Source: Nostoc sp. GT001 (GTDB lineage: Bacteria > Cyanobacteriota > Cyanobacteriia > Cyanobacteriales > Nostocaceae). Taken from it: DNA of 40,031 bases. This document shows, piece after piece, positions 28,700 to 37,453 of the stretch; positions within the stretch are counted from its first letter, which is position 1, and every line of letters begins with the position of its first letter. The DNA is taken from the NCBI RefSeq assembly GCF_030382115.1, contig NZ_JAUDRJ010000003.1, positions 3,033,932 to 3,073,962 on the forward strand, written 5' to 3'. The notes below the pieces were generated by a model that did not search any database, was not told the origin of the DNA, and saw nothing but the letters and a program-made list of their open reading frames with translations. The position numbers were made by a program, and so were the translations under genes.

Positions 28700-30415
28700 A
28701 TGAGTTACAGAATGGATCGCCGCGCTTATGCCGAAACTTACGGGCCAACAGTAGGCGATCGCATCCGACTTGCAGATACAGAATTATTTATTGAAGTTGA
28801 ACAAGATTTCACCACCTACGGCGACGAAGTTAAATTCGGCGGCGGTAAAGTCATCAGAGATGGTATGGGACAATCCCCAATTTCTAACGCCGATGGTGCT
28901 GTAGATTTAGTAATTACCAATGCCTTAATTCTCGATTGGTGGGGTATTGTCAAAGCAGATATCGGCATTAAAGATGGCAAGATTTTCAAAATTGGTAAAG
29001 CCGGAAATCCTTATATTCAAGACAATGTAGATATTATTATTGGCCCCGGAACTGAAGCCTTAGCTGGTGAAGGAATGATTCTCACTGCTGGCGGTATTGA
29101 TGCCCATATTCATTTTATTTGCCCCCAACAGATTGAAGTTGCGATCGCTTCCGGGATTACCACCATGCTCGGCGGCGGTACTGGCCCAGCTACAGGTACA
29201 AATGCCACTACCTGCACCCCAGGCCCTTGGAATATTTACCGGATGCTGCAAGCTGCTGATGCTTTTCCCGTCAACTTAGGATTTATGGGCAAAGGTAACG
29301 CCAGCAAACCCCAAGGACTTGTAGAACAAGTAAATGCTGGTGCAATGGGGTTAAAACTTCATGAAGATTGGGGAACCACACCCGCAGCAATTGATACTTG
29401 CCTCAGTGTTGCCGATGAATATGATGTGCAAGTAGCAATTCATACTGATACCCTGAACGAAGCCGGATTTGTCGAAGATACGATCGCAGCTTTCAAGAAT
29501 CGTGTAATCCACACTTACCACACTGAAGGCGCAGGTGGTGGACACGCGCCAGATATCATCAAAGTTTGCGGACAAGCCAACGTTCTCCCCTCTTCCACCA
29601 ATCCCACACGCCCTTACACCCTCAACACCTTAGACGAACACCTAGATATGTTGATGGTATGCCATCACCTTGATCCTGCGATCGCTGAAGATGTCGCTTT
29701 TGCCGAATCTCGCATCCGCCGAGAAACCATTGCCGCCGAAGACATTTTGCACGACTTAGGCGCATTTAGCATGATTTCTTCCGACTCCCAGGCAATGGGA
29801 AGAGTGGGAGAAGTAATAATTCGCACTTGGCAGACATCTCACAAAATGAAGGTGCAACGGGGAAGTCTTAACCCACAAGGGACAGAGCAAAAAGCAGATA
29901 ATTTTCGCGCGAAAAGATATGTTGCTAAGTATACAATTAACCCTGCGATCGCTCACGGAATTGCTCAATATGTGGGTTCAGTGGAAGAGGGAAAATTAGC
30001 AGATTTATGTTTGTGGCGTCCTGCGTTTTTTGGCGTGAAGCCAGAAATAGTTATTAAAGGCGGAATGATTGCATGGGCGCAAATGGGCGATGCTAACGCC
30101 AGTATTCCTACACCTCAACCAGTGTATATGCGATCGATGTTTGGTAGTTTTGCAGGGGCGCGTCATGCCACATCATTAACTTTTGTTTCGCAAGCAGCTT
30201 TAGAGAAAGAAATTCCCAGTCAGCTAGGTTTACAAAAGGTAGCAGTTGCAGTTTCTGGGACACGCCAATTGAGTAAGCGGGATATGAAGCTGAATGATGC
30301 ACTACCCCACATTGAAGTAGATCCAGAAACATACCAAGTTAGGGCTGATGGTGAGTTGCTGATTTGTGAACCTGCGACAGTTTTACCAATGGCACAGAGG
30401 TACTTTTTGTTTTAG
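28700..30415 (+). CDS. ureC: Urease subunit alpha
   Basis: Catalytic subunit that hydrolyses urea to ammonia and carbon dioxide. The 571-residue protein has all expected active-site residues: the nickel ligands His136 and His138 ([14 protein letters not shown]), carbamylated Lys219 ([12 protein letters not shown]), His248 (AIHTDTLNE), His274 ([15 protein letters not shown]), flap Cys321-His322 (MVCHHLDP) and Asp362 ([14 protein letters not shown]). The length is normal. The ATG at 28700 sits 9 bases after the DUF1349 gene. The Rpn-like gene follows after 3 bases and may ride on the same transcript. Confidence 0.98.
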
Positions 30416-30418
30416 TTC

Positions 30419-31372
30419 ATGACCGAGCAACTTACTGATTACGATAGTCCTTGGAAAGAAGTCATTGAGCTATATTTTCCCCGCTTTTTAGAGTTCTTTT
30501 TCACCCAAGCTTATGCCGAAATCGACTGGACGCGACCTTATGAATTTCTGGACACAGAACTGCAACAGCTAGAACCGGATGCAGAAATTGGGCGGCGTTT
30601 GGTCGATAAAGTCGCAAAAGTTTGGCTACTGGATGGAGAAGAAGCTTGGGTATTGGTTCATGTGGAAGTCCAAGGGCAATATGACAGCCAATTTGCCGAA
30701 CGGATGTACACATATAATTACCGCTTGTTTGACCGCCATAAAAAGCGAGTCATTAGTTTAGCAGTGTTAGCGGATGAACAAGCGAATTGGCGACCTTCCA
30801 GCTACAGCTATCAACTGGGCGGATGTCGCGTCAGCTTAGAGTTTCCTGTGGCGAAACTGTTGGACTATGAGCAAAGGTGGGAAACCTTAGAGCAAACTAC
30901 CAACCCCTTTGGTGTAATTGTGATGGCGCATCTCAAGACCAAAGCAACGCAACGAAACCCACAAAATCGGCTACAGTGGAAACTAAGCCTAGTCAGACGG
31001 CTGTATGAACGGGGATATAGCCGGGAAGATATTCGGGAACTATTTCGGTTTATCGACTGGATAATGGTTTTGCCAAAAGAGTTGGCGCTTAGTTTTAAAA
31101 CAGAAGTTAGAAGTTACGAGGAGGCAGATAGAATGCGGTACGTAACTAGTATTGAAAGGCTAGCAAAAGAAGAAGGAATTGTCGAAACTGCTAGAGAAAG
31201 CATCATTACAGTCCTAGAAACGCGATTTGGAGAAGTGCCAAGCTCCATTGTCGAAGTTATCAATAAGATAGAAGAACCATCTGTGCTAAAAATGCTTTTC
31301 AAAAATGCGATCGCAATTCCTTCCACAGCAGAATTCCAGCAAGTTTTAGATAATCTCGCTTCTAGAGAATGA
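30419..31372 (+). CDS. Rpn-like PD-(D/E)XK nuclease / transposase-related protein
   Basis: A 317-residue protein of the large cyanobacterial group annotated as Rpn-family recombination-promoting nuclease or putative transposase. The nuclease core shows Asp63 (RRLVDKVAKVWLLDGEEAWVL) and Glu83-x-Gln85 (VHVEVQGQYDSQFAERMYTYNYRL), a PD-(D/E)XK-like pattern. The C-terminal part is helical, with SYEEADRMRYVTSIERLAKEEGIVE and a RFGEVPSSIVEVINKIEEPSVLKML tail of the DUF4351 kind. It begins 3 bases after ureC, so it is probably a mobile newcomer fused to the end of the urease transcript. Target unknown. Confidence 0.75.
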   Translation: MTEQLTDYDSPWKEVIELYFPRFLEFFFTQAYAEIDWTRPYEFLDTELQQLEPDAEIGRRLVDKVAKVWLLDGEEAWVLVHVEVQGQYDSQFAERMYTYNYRLFDRHKKRVISLAVLADEQANWRPSSYSYQLGGCRVSLEFPVAKLLDYEQRWETLEQTTNPFGVIVMAHLKTKATQRNPQNRLQWKLSLVRRLYERGYSREDIRELFRFIDWIMVLPKELALSFKTEVRSYEEADRMRYVTSIERLAKEEGIVETARESIITVLETRFGEVPSSIVEVINKIEEPSVLKMLFKNAIAIPSTAEFQQVLDNLASRE

Positions 31373-31441
31373 GCGAATCGCCTACTTTCTGGTGAAAGTG
31401 CGATCGCAGCTACCTCAATAACCTTTGTTTCTCAATTGAAG

Positions 31442-34333
31442 TTAAAATCTTTCGCTTTTTATATCTCGGAGACTAATACCATAAAATTCCTGAGCTTGTT
31501 TAATCGCTCGCTTAGTATCATCTCCCATAATACCGTTCAATTTACCTTTATAAAAACCCCGCTCCCGTAGTCGCGTTTGGATTTCTAGGGTATTAAATTC
31601 GCTTTTGCTAGCAGTATTAACTGAGCTATATAACTTAGCTCTAGTAGTTGGGCCAGCAACGCCACTTGCTGCTAAGAAATTAGCTGCTTGGAATCTCCTT
31701 ACAGCATCGGCAGTATAGGGGCCATAGTAACCATTTGGCTCTCCCTCTAAATATCCTGCCTGCATTAATTGTTCTTGAAGTAGTCTAACTGGCTCACCGC
31801 GATCGCCTACACGAAGTTTATCTCGATTGACTACCTTTTTGGGAGCCTCTTCTCCATCACCAATGCCAACTCCCGGCAATTTATCTAATGTTGCTCGGTT
31901 CGCAATTCCATCAACGCTTAATTTATAAGCATCTTGGAACCGCTTGACAGCTTCTTCGGTAATTGGGCCAAATATCCCTGTGGCGTTCCCGTAATAAAAG
32001 CCTGCAACTCTTAACCGTTCTTGCAAAACCCTGACATTTTCACCTTCATCTCCTTTTCTTAGAAAATCTTTGGAAAGATTAGAAGTGGAACTATTAGTTT
32101 GTATTATATCTATATAATCATTATTTATATAATCACTAATAGTTTTAATAGAAATAATCTTAGCATTGATACCTAAAACTTTTAATTTATTGACCCTCTG
32201 TTCAGCCTCAATTTTCTTATCAAAGCTTCCAGCAAAGATTAGCCTTTGTATTTGGTTAAACCATAAAAAGGCTGCTGGTTCTACCTTTGTGACTTGTTCT
32301 AGAACTGAAGACCTATCACTATTGACTATAACTAGGTAAATTGGGCGATTTCTATTTGATGGCTGCTTAAATATCCTTTTAAAGCTGTCATCGGAATTAT
32401 CTTCCTCTTGAGCTTCACCAGATGTTATTTTGCTCAATAATTTTCCCGCTGTATTGCTAAGGACTTTTAGTTTTTTCTGCTCCTTAAATATCCCTTCTTG
32501 CAAAACTCTTTTTTGATTAATAACGGCTTTAAATTGCTTAACTACTTGTGTTAATTCTGTTGTTTTTTTGTGAAAATCTACATTGAGATTTTTTAGACGA
32601 ACCTGCATATAGTCAAAATATTTTTGCTTGTCTTTAAGTTTTGAGTTTGCAGCAGCCTCTTTTGTACTTATAGTTTGAAGTTGATCCTGTATATATTGAT
32701 TATATTTTTTAAGATTTGTCTGTTCAGTCCTTGCTTCTTTAAGAGCTTTCTGTGTATGTTGAAGGTCTTTTTGTGATTGTTGCTGTTTATTTTCTAGCTT
32801 CTTCTGCTCATACTGTACTTGTTCCAAAGCCTTATTTGATTTCTCAAAAGCTTTACTGGACTTATCTGCCTTTAATCCTACCGTTATTGCCACAAATGAG
32901 ATAAGAGCCAGTCCAGCAAACCCTACACGAATCGTCTGCTTAGTCTTTTTTTGCGTTTCAGTTAACCTTTGATTCGCCTTTTTCTCTTGCTGTAGAGCTG
33001 ATTCTGCTTTTCGTTGTGCCTCAGCTAAAATCTGCTTTGCTTGCTTTTCCGCATCCAATGCAATTTGCACTTCTTGCCTATCTAACTGCTGGCTAGCAGT
33101 TAAAAATTGATAATCGTGATCGCCCAAACTTTTGCTTCCTGCCCATATCTGGGCATCCCGCAATGCTTGCCCCCGTAACAGACGCGATTCATCCTGGCAA
33201 TTAGAAACTAACCATGCTGATAATGTTTCTGCATAGGGACGCAGATCAGCTAATGCTTTATCAACCCAGATTTGATTAAAAACAGATTCGTAAATGCGGC
33301 TATAAATTCTTAACTTTCCCTGCTGCTTAACTACCAACCCTGACAACCGTAGTTCCATTTGTTCGGGACTGTTATCATCGGCAACTTCTCTTTGTTGTAA
33401 AATTTGCTGATATAGGCCCAGTCGCCGTCCCGCGTGTTGCTCATCCCTGAGAATACGATCGCGTATCGTCCTTAAATGCTCCGGTTCGTCTTGTGATTCC
33501 CAATTTTCGATGATGCGCGATTGCACCAATTCCCCAACCCCTGCTGCTTCAATTTCAGTAAAGATGAGTTGACAAAGCTTTTGAGTAAGAAATGGTTGTC
33601 CACCCGTCCAAACCAAAACCTCTCTTAGCACTGCTTGGGGATTGCTAACTTTTCCCACTAATCCTTGGGCTAATGATTCGGCTTCATTCAATTGGAAACC
33701 GTTGAGTTCAATTGCTCTACCAATATTAAATGGTGTGCGGTTTTTATCTTGAATCAAGTCGGAGGGAGTGGCCACTCCCAACAGCGTGAAGGTAAGACGC
33801 CTATATTGTGGTTTGTCAGCACGCTGGTTATAGCAATCTCGAATTAACGCAAAAAAGTCGTCAGTCGAAAAGTTCAGACTGAGAACGCTATCGATTTCAT
33901 CTATAAAAATCACAATGGGTTGAGAAACTTCAACCAGCAAAACTTCCTCAATAAACTCACTCAGCCTATGTACTGGAGAAAGATGATCGTGATCGCGCCA
34001 CCAATTCCGTAAATTAAACTTTCCTGAAAGCTCAAAACTACTCACTAAAATACGCACTACACCTGCATACCACTGATTTGGCGTCAGGTACTGGCTACCA
34101 ATCTTCGTCAAGTCGATCACCGCACAGGCAATGTCTTCATTTTGCAGTCGTTGCATTGTTTGCACTCGCAAACTAGACTTGCCCATCTGCCGTGAATTTA
34201 AAACATAACAAAATTCTCTAGTCTTCAACGCTTCATACAAATCTGTATCTGCTTGTCGCAATACATAACTAGGAGCATCAGCTGGCAGACTGCCACCGAC
34301 TTGATATTCATAAGCTGGGTTTTGTTCTATGTT
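31442..34333 (-). CDS. Membrane AAA-like ATPase with coiled coil and peptidoglycan-binding repeats (stop side to 34333; ATG at 34336-34334)
   Basis: A 964-residue protein starting at ATG 34336. Domains in order: an AAA-like (AAA_35 type) ATPase, about residues 15-360, with Walker A-like SRQMGKSSL (48-56) and Walker [11 protein letters not shown] (D146, E147); a helical region; one membrane segment, residues 470-488 ([19 protein letters not shown]); a long charged coiled coil, about 490-640; a SPOR-like stretch, 664-730 ([31 protein letters not shown]); and three PG_binding_1-like repeats at 759-820, 840-902 and about 914-955 ([68 protein letters not shown]). An internal membrane segment puts the ATPase in the cytoplasm and the repeats in the periplasm. 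It overlaps the upstream TIR gene by one base (TGATG). Family members more often end in WD40 repeats; this ending is unusual. Confidence 0.85.
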
Positions 34334-34335
34334 CA

Positions 34336-35919
34336 TCAGCTAACTCTCAGGCGATCGCAAAAATATTGACGATACAAATCACAACGCGGCTTTACATCAT
34401 TTCCTTGCTGTTGTAATAAGCCCATACTGAGTAATTTAAAGCATTGTATCGAATCCAACCGAACTGGGCTAGTATTGGCAACTACCTTTTTGATAGCAGC
34501 AGCTAATTCCGGGCGCTGTTCTAAATTCCACAAATGCCGACGTAAATGATCGCTATAAGGGCCAGCTTCTGTGGGGGCTGTTTGCAAAAGCAGATTGAGC
34601 GTAGTATCCTGCTTGGCAATGTGATAAAGTGCCACTCGTACAAGATAGGGATGTCCTCCCACCATTGTCATTAGTTGTTCAACTTGGGTAAAACTCCAAT
34701 TGAGTCCATGTCTTTGTGCCAAATCTAGAACCTGTTGGGCGTTAAACTCTGGTAACTCAATCGGCAAGCCTACATTAAACGGCGATTGATTGATATTCAT
34801 TGGAATATAAACTTCTGTGGAATGCACTACTACCAACCGCAGTTTTTTCCAAATATCCCGGTTTTTAGCATCTTCATGCCAAGCACGTAACAGCCCAAAA
34901 AAGTCTGCGGCAATTTCGGGATGTTGAAATATACGATCAACTTCATCCAATCCCAATGCTAGGGGTTGATTGATTTCTGGTAACAAATATTCCTCGAAAT
35001 AAGCGGTGCAATTGTCTTTACTGCCAAAAATCACATCCCAGTAATCTGCTAACTTGTTGGGTAGCCTCAACCTCCTTCCGACACTGGCACAAAACCACTG
35101 AAGGAACTTATCCAAATCTGCAAAAACCTTTCCATCTGCTAATTGAAAGCTCAAAGGCACGGTTAGATAATCTTGTTGTGACGCTTGATGAAGAATCCGC
35201 GCCATGAGTGAAGTTTTACCCATCTGCCGGGGCGCTTTGATCCGAATCAAAGATCCTGGCTTCAAAATTGCCTCGTAGCAGCGAGATTCGATGGGAGGGC
35301 GATCAATATAAAACGCCGAAGCCAAATCCACCTGCCCTTCAGGCAATTCTGGTTCTGCCACTGGCACAGGCGGTGAAAGAGTCAGAGGGTGGAGGGGTGA
35401 TGAAGGGAAAGAATAACTACTTTCTTCTCTCCCCATCTCCCCATTTGCCAATCTTTTTGTATCTCCATCTGTCAGTAAACTAAAAATTTCCTGTAAAATT
35501 CTGGGAGTATCGACAGGTGAATTCCACTCTCGCTGCTGAACCTGTTGTAAATAGCCCCGCAAATCATAGTTCAGTGGCTTACTCCAAGGGAAGTTAACGC
35601 GAATAGGCAAAATCACTGGCTTATAATGATTACTGCCATCCCGTAACTCTTTAGCCTGTCTCACCTCTTCTGTCACCATCTCGCTAGTTGCCGATCGCTC
35701 AGACAACAGCAACAAAAAGTAATCACATAGTTTTAATTCTTCATCAATGCGCTGGGGCCATTTTTCTCCCAAGCGAATACTCTCACCTGCCATAAATGCT
35801 TCGTGCCCAGCAGCTTTAAGAGCTTCATAAAAATTATGGGCAAGGCTCAAATCTGGATCTTGACTGCGATAGCTGATGAAAAATCTGGCATTTTTGCTGG
35901 CTGCTGGCAAAGTTGGCAT
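34336..35919 (-). CDS. TIR domain - AAA-like ATPase
   Basis: From ATG 35919 ([21 protein letters not shown]) the product has 527 residues. The N-terminal TIR domain covers about the first 150 residues: [11 protein letters not shown] (strand A and BB-loop start), [22 protein letters not shown], and [23 protein letters not shown], where the Ser-x7-10-Glu pattern contains the catalytic glutamate position of bacterial TIR NADases. A low-complexity linker with [20 protein letters not shown] follows. Then comes an AAA_35-type ATPase with [14 protein letters not shown] and [12 protein letters not shown] (Walker A- and B-like). Such TIR-ATPase fusions resemble STAND-type signalling or anti-phage proteins. 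A TTG at 35949 would add ten residues. Its stop overlaps the next gene's ATG, so the two are coupled. Confidence 0.85.
35390..35480. repeat. Low-complexity CTCCCCATCTCCCC-type stretch coding the TIR-AAA linker
   Basis: The plus strand shows GGGTGGAGGGGTGATGAAGG and CTTCTCTCCCCATCTCCCCA, phrases otherwise common between genes in Nostoc genomes. They encode, in frame, the poorly conserved linker between the TIR and ATPase domains. Confidence 0.45.
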
Positions 35920-35954
35920 AGTCGAATCAATATCCAGAAATTTTGACAAATTTG

Positions 35955-36304: not shown

Positions 36305-37453
36305 ATGACTTCACAATCTTCTCGCTCTGACAAAATTCTGGTTGTTGATGACTCTCCTGATAACGTGTTTTTGATCAAAACTATTTTGGAGGAAGAAGGT
36401 TACACAGTTAGCACCGCAGAAAATGGGATTTCGGCTTTGGCAGAATTGAAAGCTTCTCCTTGTGACTTGGTTCTACTGGATCTGATGATGCCAGGTATGG
36501 ATGGGTACGAAGTCACAAAGCATATTCGCGGTGAGATGAAATTGCCGCAATATATCCCCATATTGCTGATAACTGCCCACGATGCGCCAAACGTCGCCCA
36601 CGGTTTAGACTTGGGGGCTGATGATTTTATCCGCAAACCTGTAACAGTAGATGAATTGCTGGCACGAGTGCGATCGCTCTTACGTTTGAAGCATAGTATG
36701 GATGAACGTGATGAAATTGCCCGTCAGCGAGAAGATTTTGTCTCCCGCCTCACCCACGATTTACGCACTCCCTTGGTAGCCGCCGATCGCATGTTGATGC
36801 TATTTCAGCAAGGCGCGTTGGGAACATTATCAACGCAAATGCAGGAAGTAATCGCCATCATGGCCCGTAGCAATATCAACCTGCTTTCTATGGTCAATAC
36901 CTTACTGGAAGTTTATCGCTTTGAAGCAGGTCGCAAAAGTTTGGCATTTCAACCAGTCAATCTGAGACAACTGCTAGAAGAAGTAATGGGAGAATTATCA
37001 CCTCTAGCCCAAGAGAAAGCACTCTCCCTAAATTTGGACTTTACTGAAGAGTCAAACACAGTGATGGGCGATCGCTTAGAACTGCATCGTCTATTCACCA
37101 ATCTCATAGGCAATGCGATCAAATTTACCAACTCTGGCTCTATTACTATTCGTTTTACTTCTCAACGCCAGTTCGACAACAGTAGTCAATCTCAGTTATC
37201 TGGAAAATCCAATTCTGGTGACTACATTAGAATTGAGATAGCGGATACTGGCCCAGGTATTCCCACTGAAGAACAAGCCACCATATTTGAACGATTTCGC
37301 CAAGGCAGTCACAAAACTTCTGGTAGTGGCTTAGGATTGTACCTTGCTCGTCGAATTGTCGAGGCACATCAAGGCATAATTCTCCTTAATTCTGAGTTAG
37401 GTAAAGGTAGTGTGTTTATTGTGCTTCTACCCAGCAAAACAGAAGAAACTTAG
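36305..37453 (+). CDS. Response regulator - histidine kinase hybrid
   Basis: A 382-residue cytoplasmic signalling protein. An N-terminal receiver domain (residues 9-125) has acidic residues in ILVVDDSPDN, phospho-acceptor Asp59 (LVLLDLMMPGMDGYEV) and the IRKPVT lysine. It is followed by a HisKA dimerisation helix with His151 (FVSRLTHDLRTPL) and a HATPase_c domain with N-box HRLFTNLIGNAIKF, G1 IADTGPGIP and G2 GSGLGLYLARRIVEAH. There is no membrane segment or sensor domain, so its input probably comes through phosphorylation of the receiver. It is transcribed divergently from the TIR-AAA pair; a functional link is only a possibility. Confidence 0.92.
   Translation: MTSQSSRSDKILVVDDSPDNVFLIKTILEEEGYTVSTAENGISALAELKASPCDLVLLDLMMPGMDGYEVTKHIRGEMKLPQYIPILLITAHDAPNVAHGLDLGADDFIRKPVTVDELLARVRSLLRLKHSMDERDEIARQREDFVSRLTHDLRTPLVAADRMLMLFQQGALGTLSTQMQEVIAIMARSNINLLSMVNTLLEVYRFEAGRKSLAFQPVNLRQLLEEVMGELSPLAQEKALSLNLDFTEESNTVMGDRLELHRLFTNLIGNAIKFTNSGSITIRFTSQRQFDNSSQSQLSGKSNSGDYIRIEIADTGPGIPTEEQATIFERFRQGSHKTSGSGLGLYLARRIVEAHQGIILLNSELGKGSVFIVLLPSKTEET

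Follow-up and report, generated by a model that had tools for sequence, protein, structure and literature searches.

Two paired AAA_35 ATPases, one with a TIR domain and one with an exchangeable tail, as a candidate split STAND switch in Nostoc

Why should a protein with a TIR domain share an overlapping gene pair with a protein predicted to cross the membrane and bind the cell wall? The question is raised by two minus-strand genes, here termed A and B, in the window, a stretch of 40,031 nucleotides from Nostoc sp. GT001 (contig NZ_JAUDRJ010000003.1). The initial annotation coupled a TIR output to a wall-reaching ATPase, an interpretation that is partly supported by the present analysis. We believe, with a probability of roughly 0.6, that A and B together make up one STAND (NLR-like) switch split over two proteins, with A as the executor and B as a membrane sensor. 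Such a switch would probably serve in phage defence or programmed death, and wall sensing is best read as one exchangeable variant of it.

Gene A (34336..35949, minus strand) encodes 537 aa from a TTG start, with a TIR domain followed by a STAND-like AAA_35 ATPase (Pfam TIR_2, 65.6 bits; AAA_35, 529.6 bits). It had been annotated as beginning at 35919, which is an in-frame ATG and an alternative start, but the open reading frame extends ten codons further, to the TTG at 35949. The TIR domain covers residues 23-139 (35533..35883) by Pfam and in the structural model, and E95 (codon 35665-35667) sits at the Glu of the W-x-x-x-E pattern, which we take to be the TIR catalytic residue. With a modelled TIR fold and this putative catalytic Glu, A has the fold and the key residue expected of TIR NADases. 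The equivalent position is E in 63 and Q in 10 of 81 TIR-bearing A ORFs, or E in 60 of 78 once three repeated loci are removed (L084, L085 and L128 appear to repeat L074, L071 and L079, as L102 does L182); the 18 of 81 with another residue than E count against our preferred explanation. The ATPase occupies residues 202-531 (34357..35346), with Walker A around K245 and Walker B around D335.

Gene B (31442..34336, minus strand; 964 aa) was rightly described as carrying a related ATPase, since Pfam assigns both proteins to AAA_35 (116.1 bits in B). In B this domain spans residues 15-354 (33275..34294), with Walker A around K53 and Walker B at D146/E147. A single transmembrane segment is predicted by Kyte-Doolittle hydropathy from about residue 468 (32879..32935), and the annotated coiled coil appears as a long helix at residues 493-630 (32447..32860) in a low-confidence model. 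Three peptidoglycan-binding repeats follow at about residues 765-820, 838-893 and 902-955 (31472..32044; PG_binding_1, 164.3 bits over three stretches), seen by Pfam and in the model; AAA_35 and PG_binding both score above the Pfam cut-off in B. The SPOR-like part that had been placed between helix and repeats (residues 666-730, 32147..32341) was not confirmed: no Pfam SPOR match was obtained at E<=0.1, and the model of residues 661-740 is weak.

Both ATPases have intact motifs, as expected of STAND NTPases: the P-loop Lys and the acidic Walker B residues are kept in each. In A, G244, K245 and D335 are invariant and E336 is present in at least 90% of a 45-row alignment (the window protein and 44 of the 59 listed TIR-bearing A); in B, G52, K53, D146 and E147 are invariant in a 24-row alignment. 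The first P-loop Gly is substituted in both, by A239 in A and N47 in B. The model of A matches best the plant TIR-NLR RPP1 and archaeal STAND-type structures, and the best fold matches are 2qen and 2fna (SSO1545), presumably MNS relatives. Sequence and models thereby support a STAND-type assembly of ATPase, helical and winged-helix parts, against which we count the high scores of Orc/Cdc6 structures with the models of both proteins.

The two genes overlap by one base at TGATG (34334..34338, minus strand), the stop of A and the start of B, as the initial annotation had stated. Neighbour conservation had been set as a check on whether the ATPases are a real couple, and it was found: of 80 cyanobacterial loci, chosen as those most similar to a TIR-type query, 55 have a B downstream of A, and within the genome of this strain seven of 11 type-A genes do. 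By chance, a given A would have a B on its own strand in the next 3 kb downstream about 0.2% of the time (11 type-B genes in 7.9 Mb). The pair also occurs on a plasmid from another phylum. Because it recurs across loci and within its own genome, a chance one-off overlap is ruled out. A and B form two well-separated AAA_35 subfamilies and are encoded side by side, like the executor and sensor STANDs of paired NLR-like systems; one natural A-B fusion was found. Frequent fusion is rejected: a fusion query of 291 genomes, scoring at most two candidates in each, gave at least 43 matches that cover the two ATPases, from 39 genomes, and since each of those listed contains at least one stop codon they are tandem genes or decayed copies, with no second stop-free fusion among them. 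Adjacency is not obligatory, as 18 of the 80 loci have at least 1.2 kb of downstream sequence (15 of them more than 3 kb) and no B, so A can stand alone or use a distant partner. This counts against the split switch, as does the co-divergence of A and B within this genome, which falls to P=0.056 when the window pair is excluded.

What varies at this site is the tail of B. Twelve Nostoc genomes share A and the flanks in conserved form, the latter being a response regulator/histidine kinase gene (36305..37453, plus strand) and a urease alpha-subunit-like gene (28700..30415, plus strand), named from its sequence and which we take to be ureC, while the C-terminal part of B is replaced. Five C-terminal types occur next to the window-type A, and 37 of 45 comparable tail pairs are without detectable similarity (the B of L079 and L083 in this comparison are fragments). 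The exchangeable cassette can be delimited at 31376..33090 (minus strand), where the DNA does not match the syntenic locus in genome G015 although the sequence on either side does, at 94% and 97%. An exchangeable domain on one partner, as in paired NLR-like systems, is thus present here. Of the 12 B at the site 10 lack the wall part, as do most of the B relatives listed and the majority of 66 paired B, a set that leaves out L084, L085, L128, L028 and L035-L039 together with low-scoring genes, opposite-strand genes (L029) and genes running off a contig end. Since the wall part is one of five tail types, the annotated sensing of envelope damage fails as a constant feature and is possible for this variant only.

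These replacements bear on the suggestion that B works by itself at the cell wall or septum and has no more than an operon in common with the TIR-ATPase. Its transmembrane segment, coiled coil and PG_binding repeats, and the similarity of its C-terminal part to PG-binding proteins devoid of AAA_35, would fit such a role. However, the constant part of B is the ATPase, the wall part is mostly absent, and both adjacency and overlap with A persist where the tail has been replaced; we consider this explanation highly improbable.

Elsewhere in Nostoc the same site is occupied by a different A/B pair, by a NACHT STAND protein or by neither. NACHT scores above the Pfam cut-off in L164, L166, L186, L187 and the fragment L172, and BLAST gives 83-94% identity to these Pfam-supported proteins for L167 and L183 and for fragments found in L168 and L191. 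Presence and absence, decay and turnover of the pair genes are therefore visible at one fixed site.

AAA_35 passes the Pfam cut-off in at least 81 of the 244 genomes sampled from the phylum, with at most eight candidates scored per genome. Across the family, the two partners carry different kinds of domain. A bears TIR, trypsin, CHAT, kinase, cyclase, HTH (GerE/HTH) or GGDEF outputs, among which TIR is over-represented since the 80 loci were chosen by similarity to a TIR-type query. B bears mostly input domains: WD40, TPR, GAF, CHASE2, periplasmic-binding (Peripla_BP), GUN4, PAS and PG_binding. WD40 tails were labelled by BLAST on 25 of the 66 paired B and GAF-type tails on 12, of which Pfam supports L120, L135 and L142; the labels rest on a few tails, and 26 of the 66 were at first unlabelled, 12 of these being GAF-type. 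No transmembrane segment is predicted beyond residue 380 in 15 of the 66 (two of them truncated), which counts against a membrane sensor.

Some B C-termini are catalytic (histidine kinase, amidase, CHAT) and fit a pure sensor poorly. They would suit a scheme in which the tails are effectors or decoys and the TIR or protease of A is a trigger or processing step, and PMC7159879 reads comparable variable tails, including peptidoglycan-associating ones after a transmembrane segment, as effectors. We regard this as improbable, as the tails that could be recognised mostly bind ligands or proteins and the TIR, protease, kinase or cyclase sits on A.

A more serious, though still unlikely, contender is a general environmental or developmental switch outside immunity, in which B would read the wall, light or tetrapyrrole, metabolites or stress and the output of A would be regulatory (kinase, cyclase, GGDEF, HTH, protease or a TIR second messenger). 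Several sensor domains of B are well-known environmental types (GAF, CHASE2, periplasmic-binding, GUN4, PAS), several outputs on A are regulatory, and paralogues are many, with 26 AAA_35 matches in this genome. In contrast, the fast replacement of sensors, the presence/absence and decay, and the alternation with NACHT proteins at one site are more conflict-like, as are the CHAT, TIR and trypsin outputs, the last in company with Trypco1. Trypco1, a marker of conflict systems, is encoded upstream of trypsin-type A in 16 of 17 cases, where the 17 include close relatives and the comparison set of 100 others includes three repeats.

The genomic surroundings are suggestive only as to defence. The window pair lies between urease and histidine-kinase genes with no evident defence island, and A had no match in 50,697 phage records, which we count against the defence reading. 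Of 36 matching plasmid records 13 were examined; B directly follows A in eight and, by HMM class, not in L209, L210, L213, L214 and L216. NACHT or NB-ARC is annotated near A in four of the 13 (L205, L210, L211 and L215), restriction genes in one (L206) and an AIPR gene in one (L210), counts that are anecdotal as they have no control set. The earlier statement that no described defence system has this pairing stands: every NCBIfam match of A and B lies under its cut-off, and PADLOC matches are confined to the TIR or the coiled coil, apart from a single weak match to an ATPase, so no named system fits. Thoeris, retron-TIR and SAVED-TIR systems were rejected as candidates, the TIR part alone matching far under the NCBIfam cut-offs and, in PADLOC, with a best E of 5.7e-7.

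For the split switch we infer a topology, a complex, a direction of signalling, a trigger, an enzymatic activity and a defence role that would combine as follows. A would be the executor, with an N-terminal TIR output and a STAND ATPase and lacking a sensor of its own; B would be the sensor: its STAND ATPase would lie in the cytoplasm and its anchor in the membrane, and a long helix in the periplasm would lead to the exchangeable C-terminal module, which in the window is the three peptidoglycan-binding repeats. Co-produced, the two may rest as a hetero-complex held through their related ATPases. A change in the wall, caused for instance by a phage lysin, by incoming DNA or by damage, would shift the wall-bound arm of B. 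The altered nucleotide state of B would then permit A to oligomerise and gather its TIR domains, which could halt or kill the cell by cleaving NAD or producing a signal. Extending this, we tentatively propose that cyanobacteria may be rich in NLR-like immune receptors that work in pairs, an executor STAND with TIR, trypsin, CHAT, kinase or cyclase beside a sensor STAND whose tail is swapped as a cassette at fixed chromosomal sites. The window sensor would be tethered to peptidoglycan and convert phage attack on the wall into NAD loss; we regard this wider proposal as somewhat doubtful.

In the open-access literature searched we found no described function for the AAA_35 family and no paper on the AAA_35 pair, the latter a weak negative. 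A family of MNS-clade STANDs, Npun2340/2341, was reportedly described by Leipe in 2004. PMC8195603 names it too, as cyanobacterial STANDs to judge by the name, which would agree with the best folds found here; if AAA_35 is this family, what the present analysis adds to a known family is its pairing and swapping. The same paper describes nSTAND2, a two-gene counter-invader system in which the NTP-binding motifs of one partner are eroded and that partner carries mostly GT4 or HEPN effectors (PMC8195603). Like A and B, nSTAND2 as presented there is a two-gene operon with two STAND NTPase cores and a variable module on one partner. Unlike it, the present pair is of the AAA_35 family, keeps Walker residues in both proteins and so has no eroded partner, carries neither GT4 nor HEPN in the window B, and has recognised variable tails that are mainly sensor-like.

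The iSTAND/VMAP MoxR-vWA ternary systems and the two-gene EACC1 system, which in PMC7159879 combine a constant core with hypervariable modules, share TIR, trypsin or caspase, Trypco1 and transmembrane segments with peptidoglycan-associating domains. They differ from the pair in that its cores are two AAA_35 ATPases, and Pfam scans of its two direct neighbours, the response regulator/histidine kinase gene and an ORF that matches Transposase_31 below threshold, gave neither MoxR nor vWA. Single-chain antiphage STANDs (Avs, bNACHT) follow the same logic of effector, ATPase and sensor, and NACHT-NCH2 proteins occupy this chromosomal site in other Nostoc, whereas executor and sensor are here two proteins, each with an ATPase. 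An Avs5 structure was present in the structural comparison.

The division of NLR-like receptors into executor and sensor is known as a principle in plants, where paired NLRs with integrated domains include RPS4/RRS1 and RGA4/RGA5. The two-gene arrangement described here resembles these immune receptors in its adjacent STAND-type genes, its output-bearing executor, whose model is closest to the TIR-NLR RPP1, and its sensor with an exchangeable integrated domain. It differs in being bacterial, built on AAA_35 ATPases, usually in tandem, with a sensor that may cross a membrane, and in being known from sequence and models; no LRR was seen in the AAA_35 proteins scanned. The tails of B suggest triggers that can be tested, namely the wall, tetrapyrrole and periplasmic ligands, and cassette exchange at one cyanobacterial locus would allow sensor evolution and executor activation to be studied in bacteria. 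If the wider proposal of a cyanobacterial immune repertoire is true, bacteria would have their own equivalent of the plant pairs.

Both genes of the window pair, A (34336-35949, minus strand) and B (31442-34336, minus strand), their coordinates and their TGATG overlap are as first described. Pfam recognises TIR_2 and AAA_35 in A, and AAA_35 followed by PG_binding_1 in three stretches in B, which agrees with the TIR, ATPase and peptidoglycan-binding assignments of the initial annotation; a membrane segment is likewise predicted after the ATPase of B, while the label of a SPOR-like part found no confirmation. An adjoining ORF of 317 aa (30419-31372), whose Transposase_31 match of 12.9 bits lies below the cut-off of 21, has relatives at many syntenic sites.

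The pair is flanked by a urease gene on one side and by a response regulator/histidine kinase gene on the other. Among 12 Nostoc genomes with window-type A at this site, median identity is 92-97% for the four flanking proteins and 92% for the AAA part of A, against 72% for the N-terminal part of A and 76% (range 68-98) for B residues 1-430; five of the 12 A have an additional trypsin domain. The C-terminal tails of B differ far more: 45 of the 66 comparisons were feasible, and 37 of these gave no similarity at E 1e-5. B ends in PG_binding in the window and L070, TPR in L071, WD40 in L072, a histidine kinase in L073 and L074, and a part with several TM segments, itself unmatched in Pfam, in L075, L076, L077 and L078; what is left of the broken L079 indicates the multi-TM type too, and the tail of L083 is truncated. 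The multi-TM tail recurs in L090, L156 and L205; it has no Pfam match in L075, L156 or L205, and in L078 the sole match is 3keto-disac_hyd, at the far end. Compared with genome G015, whose flanking proteins are 97-100% identical to those of the window, the DNA match stops at 33091 and restarts at 31375, so that the two differ in a cassette of about 1.7 kb. B of G015 matches that of G049 (98% and 91%) better than that of the window (75% and none), a closeness that the flanks do not share, which points to exchange between lineages. Some Nostoc also carry accessory genes among the urease genes (L165:6290-8124 and L071:11617-13451), one ATPase-like by eye; this is possibly a second variable site.

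The flanking kinase gene is present in 52 of 53 Nostoc genomes. Next to it we found the window-type pair in 12, an A at a contig end in one (L169), a different A/B pair in six (L171, L177, L180, L181, L182 and L185, with L177 and L180 irregular), remnants in two (L165 and L174), a NACHT-type protein in six and fragments of one in three; eight lack a STAND gene (in L178 and L184 other genes intervene), and in 14 the surroundings differ or are not contiguous. Thus, one address is occupied in turn by different STAND systems. The second A/B group is 53-55% identical to the window in the AAA part of A and 63-65% in B 1-430 (four checked), and its B tail is of periplasmic-binding type in L171, L177, L181, L182 and L185. 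Its output is trypsin in L171, L177 and L181, and in L182 and L185 a TIR 93% and 86% identical to that of the window, although the ATPase of L182 is only about 54% identical. Since one A lineage carries either TIR or trypsin, output domains seem to be exchanged as well.

In the window's own genome, a PF14516 (AAA_35) profile search gave 26 matches. Eleven are strong (359-531 bits, type A), 11 genes score lower (about 93-131 bits, type B), and there are fragments besides. In type A the ATPase is joined to TIR, trypsin-TIR, CHAT, GerE or HTH-like domains, or to GGDEF at the C-terminus, and Pfam leaves some of the N-terminal parts unmatched. In type B it is combined with PG_binding, WD40, GUN4 or CHASE2, with nothing recognised beyond the ATPase in L027. 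Seven pairs are tandem and one is divergent (L029); A of L031, L035 and L036 appears broken (frame or stop). The genes around an AAA_35-WD40 gene on the main contig (L038, C3:4647500-4660500) are duplicated on a short contig (L039, G000:C4:1-10279), either an assembly duplicate or a recent copy.

Two HMMs built from these proteins, one for A and one for B, separated the types clearly in nearly all cases, the exception being a fusion. In a sample of 80 cyanobacterial A loci, skewed towards TIR-type A, B was encoded in the same orientation no more than 3 kb away in 55; B was absent near A in 18, the sequence ended within 1.2 kb in six, and one (L150, Iningainema tapete) encoded both in a single ORF of 962 residues. 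In this fusion (L150:5272-8160) the second ATPase reads GSRQMGRSS, with the P-loop Lys replaced by Arg. In 42 of 66 collected pairs the two genes overlap or stand no more than 60 bases apart. Of 244 genomes sampled across the phylum, 81 have AAA_35 above its cut-off, and of 14 control genomes none; a plasmid from a different phylum (Abditibacteriota bacterium) encodes TIR-AAA_35 and AAA_35-PAS-GAF with an 8-base overlap. On a plasmid of Nostoc sp. HK-01, CHAT-TIR-AAA_35 adjoins AAA_35-GUN4-3xPG_binding, with a caspase-FGE protein and restriction genes annotated as NspV and type III close by, and on that of Nostoc TCL26-01 (L205) a gene annotated NACHT precedes two consecutive A-B pairs. Ten TIR-AAA_35 proteins align Q with TIR E95 (L101, L103, L104, L106, L107, L108, L110, L111, L137 and the possibly misaligned L152) and are perhaps non-catalytic.

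Reading A as executor and B as sensor has several points against it: A without adjoining B, catalytic B tails, B proteins without a TM segment, TIR domains without the Glu, a resemblance to Orc/Cdc6, and an A-B co-divergence signal that depends on few pairs. Contact between A and B is favoured by the fusion seen in nature, by how closely the two genes are linked and by their co-divergence. As the window's B has a predicted membrane anchor and an end that would bind the wall, a wall event would be the likely trigger; we infer the steps from there to TIR activity, and a role in defence. Trypco1, described as co-occurring with trypsin in conflict systems (PMC7159879), lay immediately upstream of A in 16 of the 17 cases labelled as trypsin-bearing (by Pfam for L171, by HMM for the others) and of none of 100 other A. 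In the simplest reading, A would be an NLR-like executor that has no sensor, and B would be the NLR-like sensor, equipped with an ATPase of its own.
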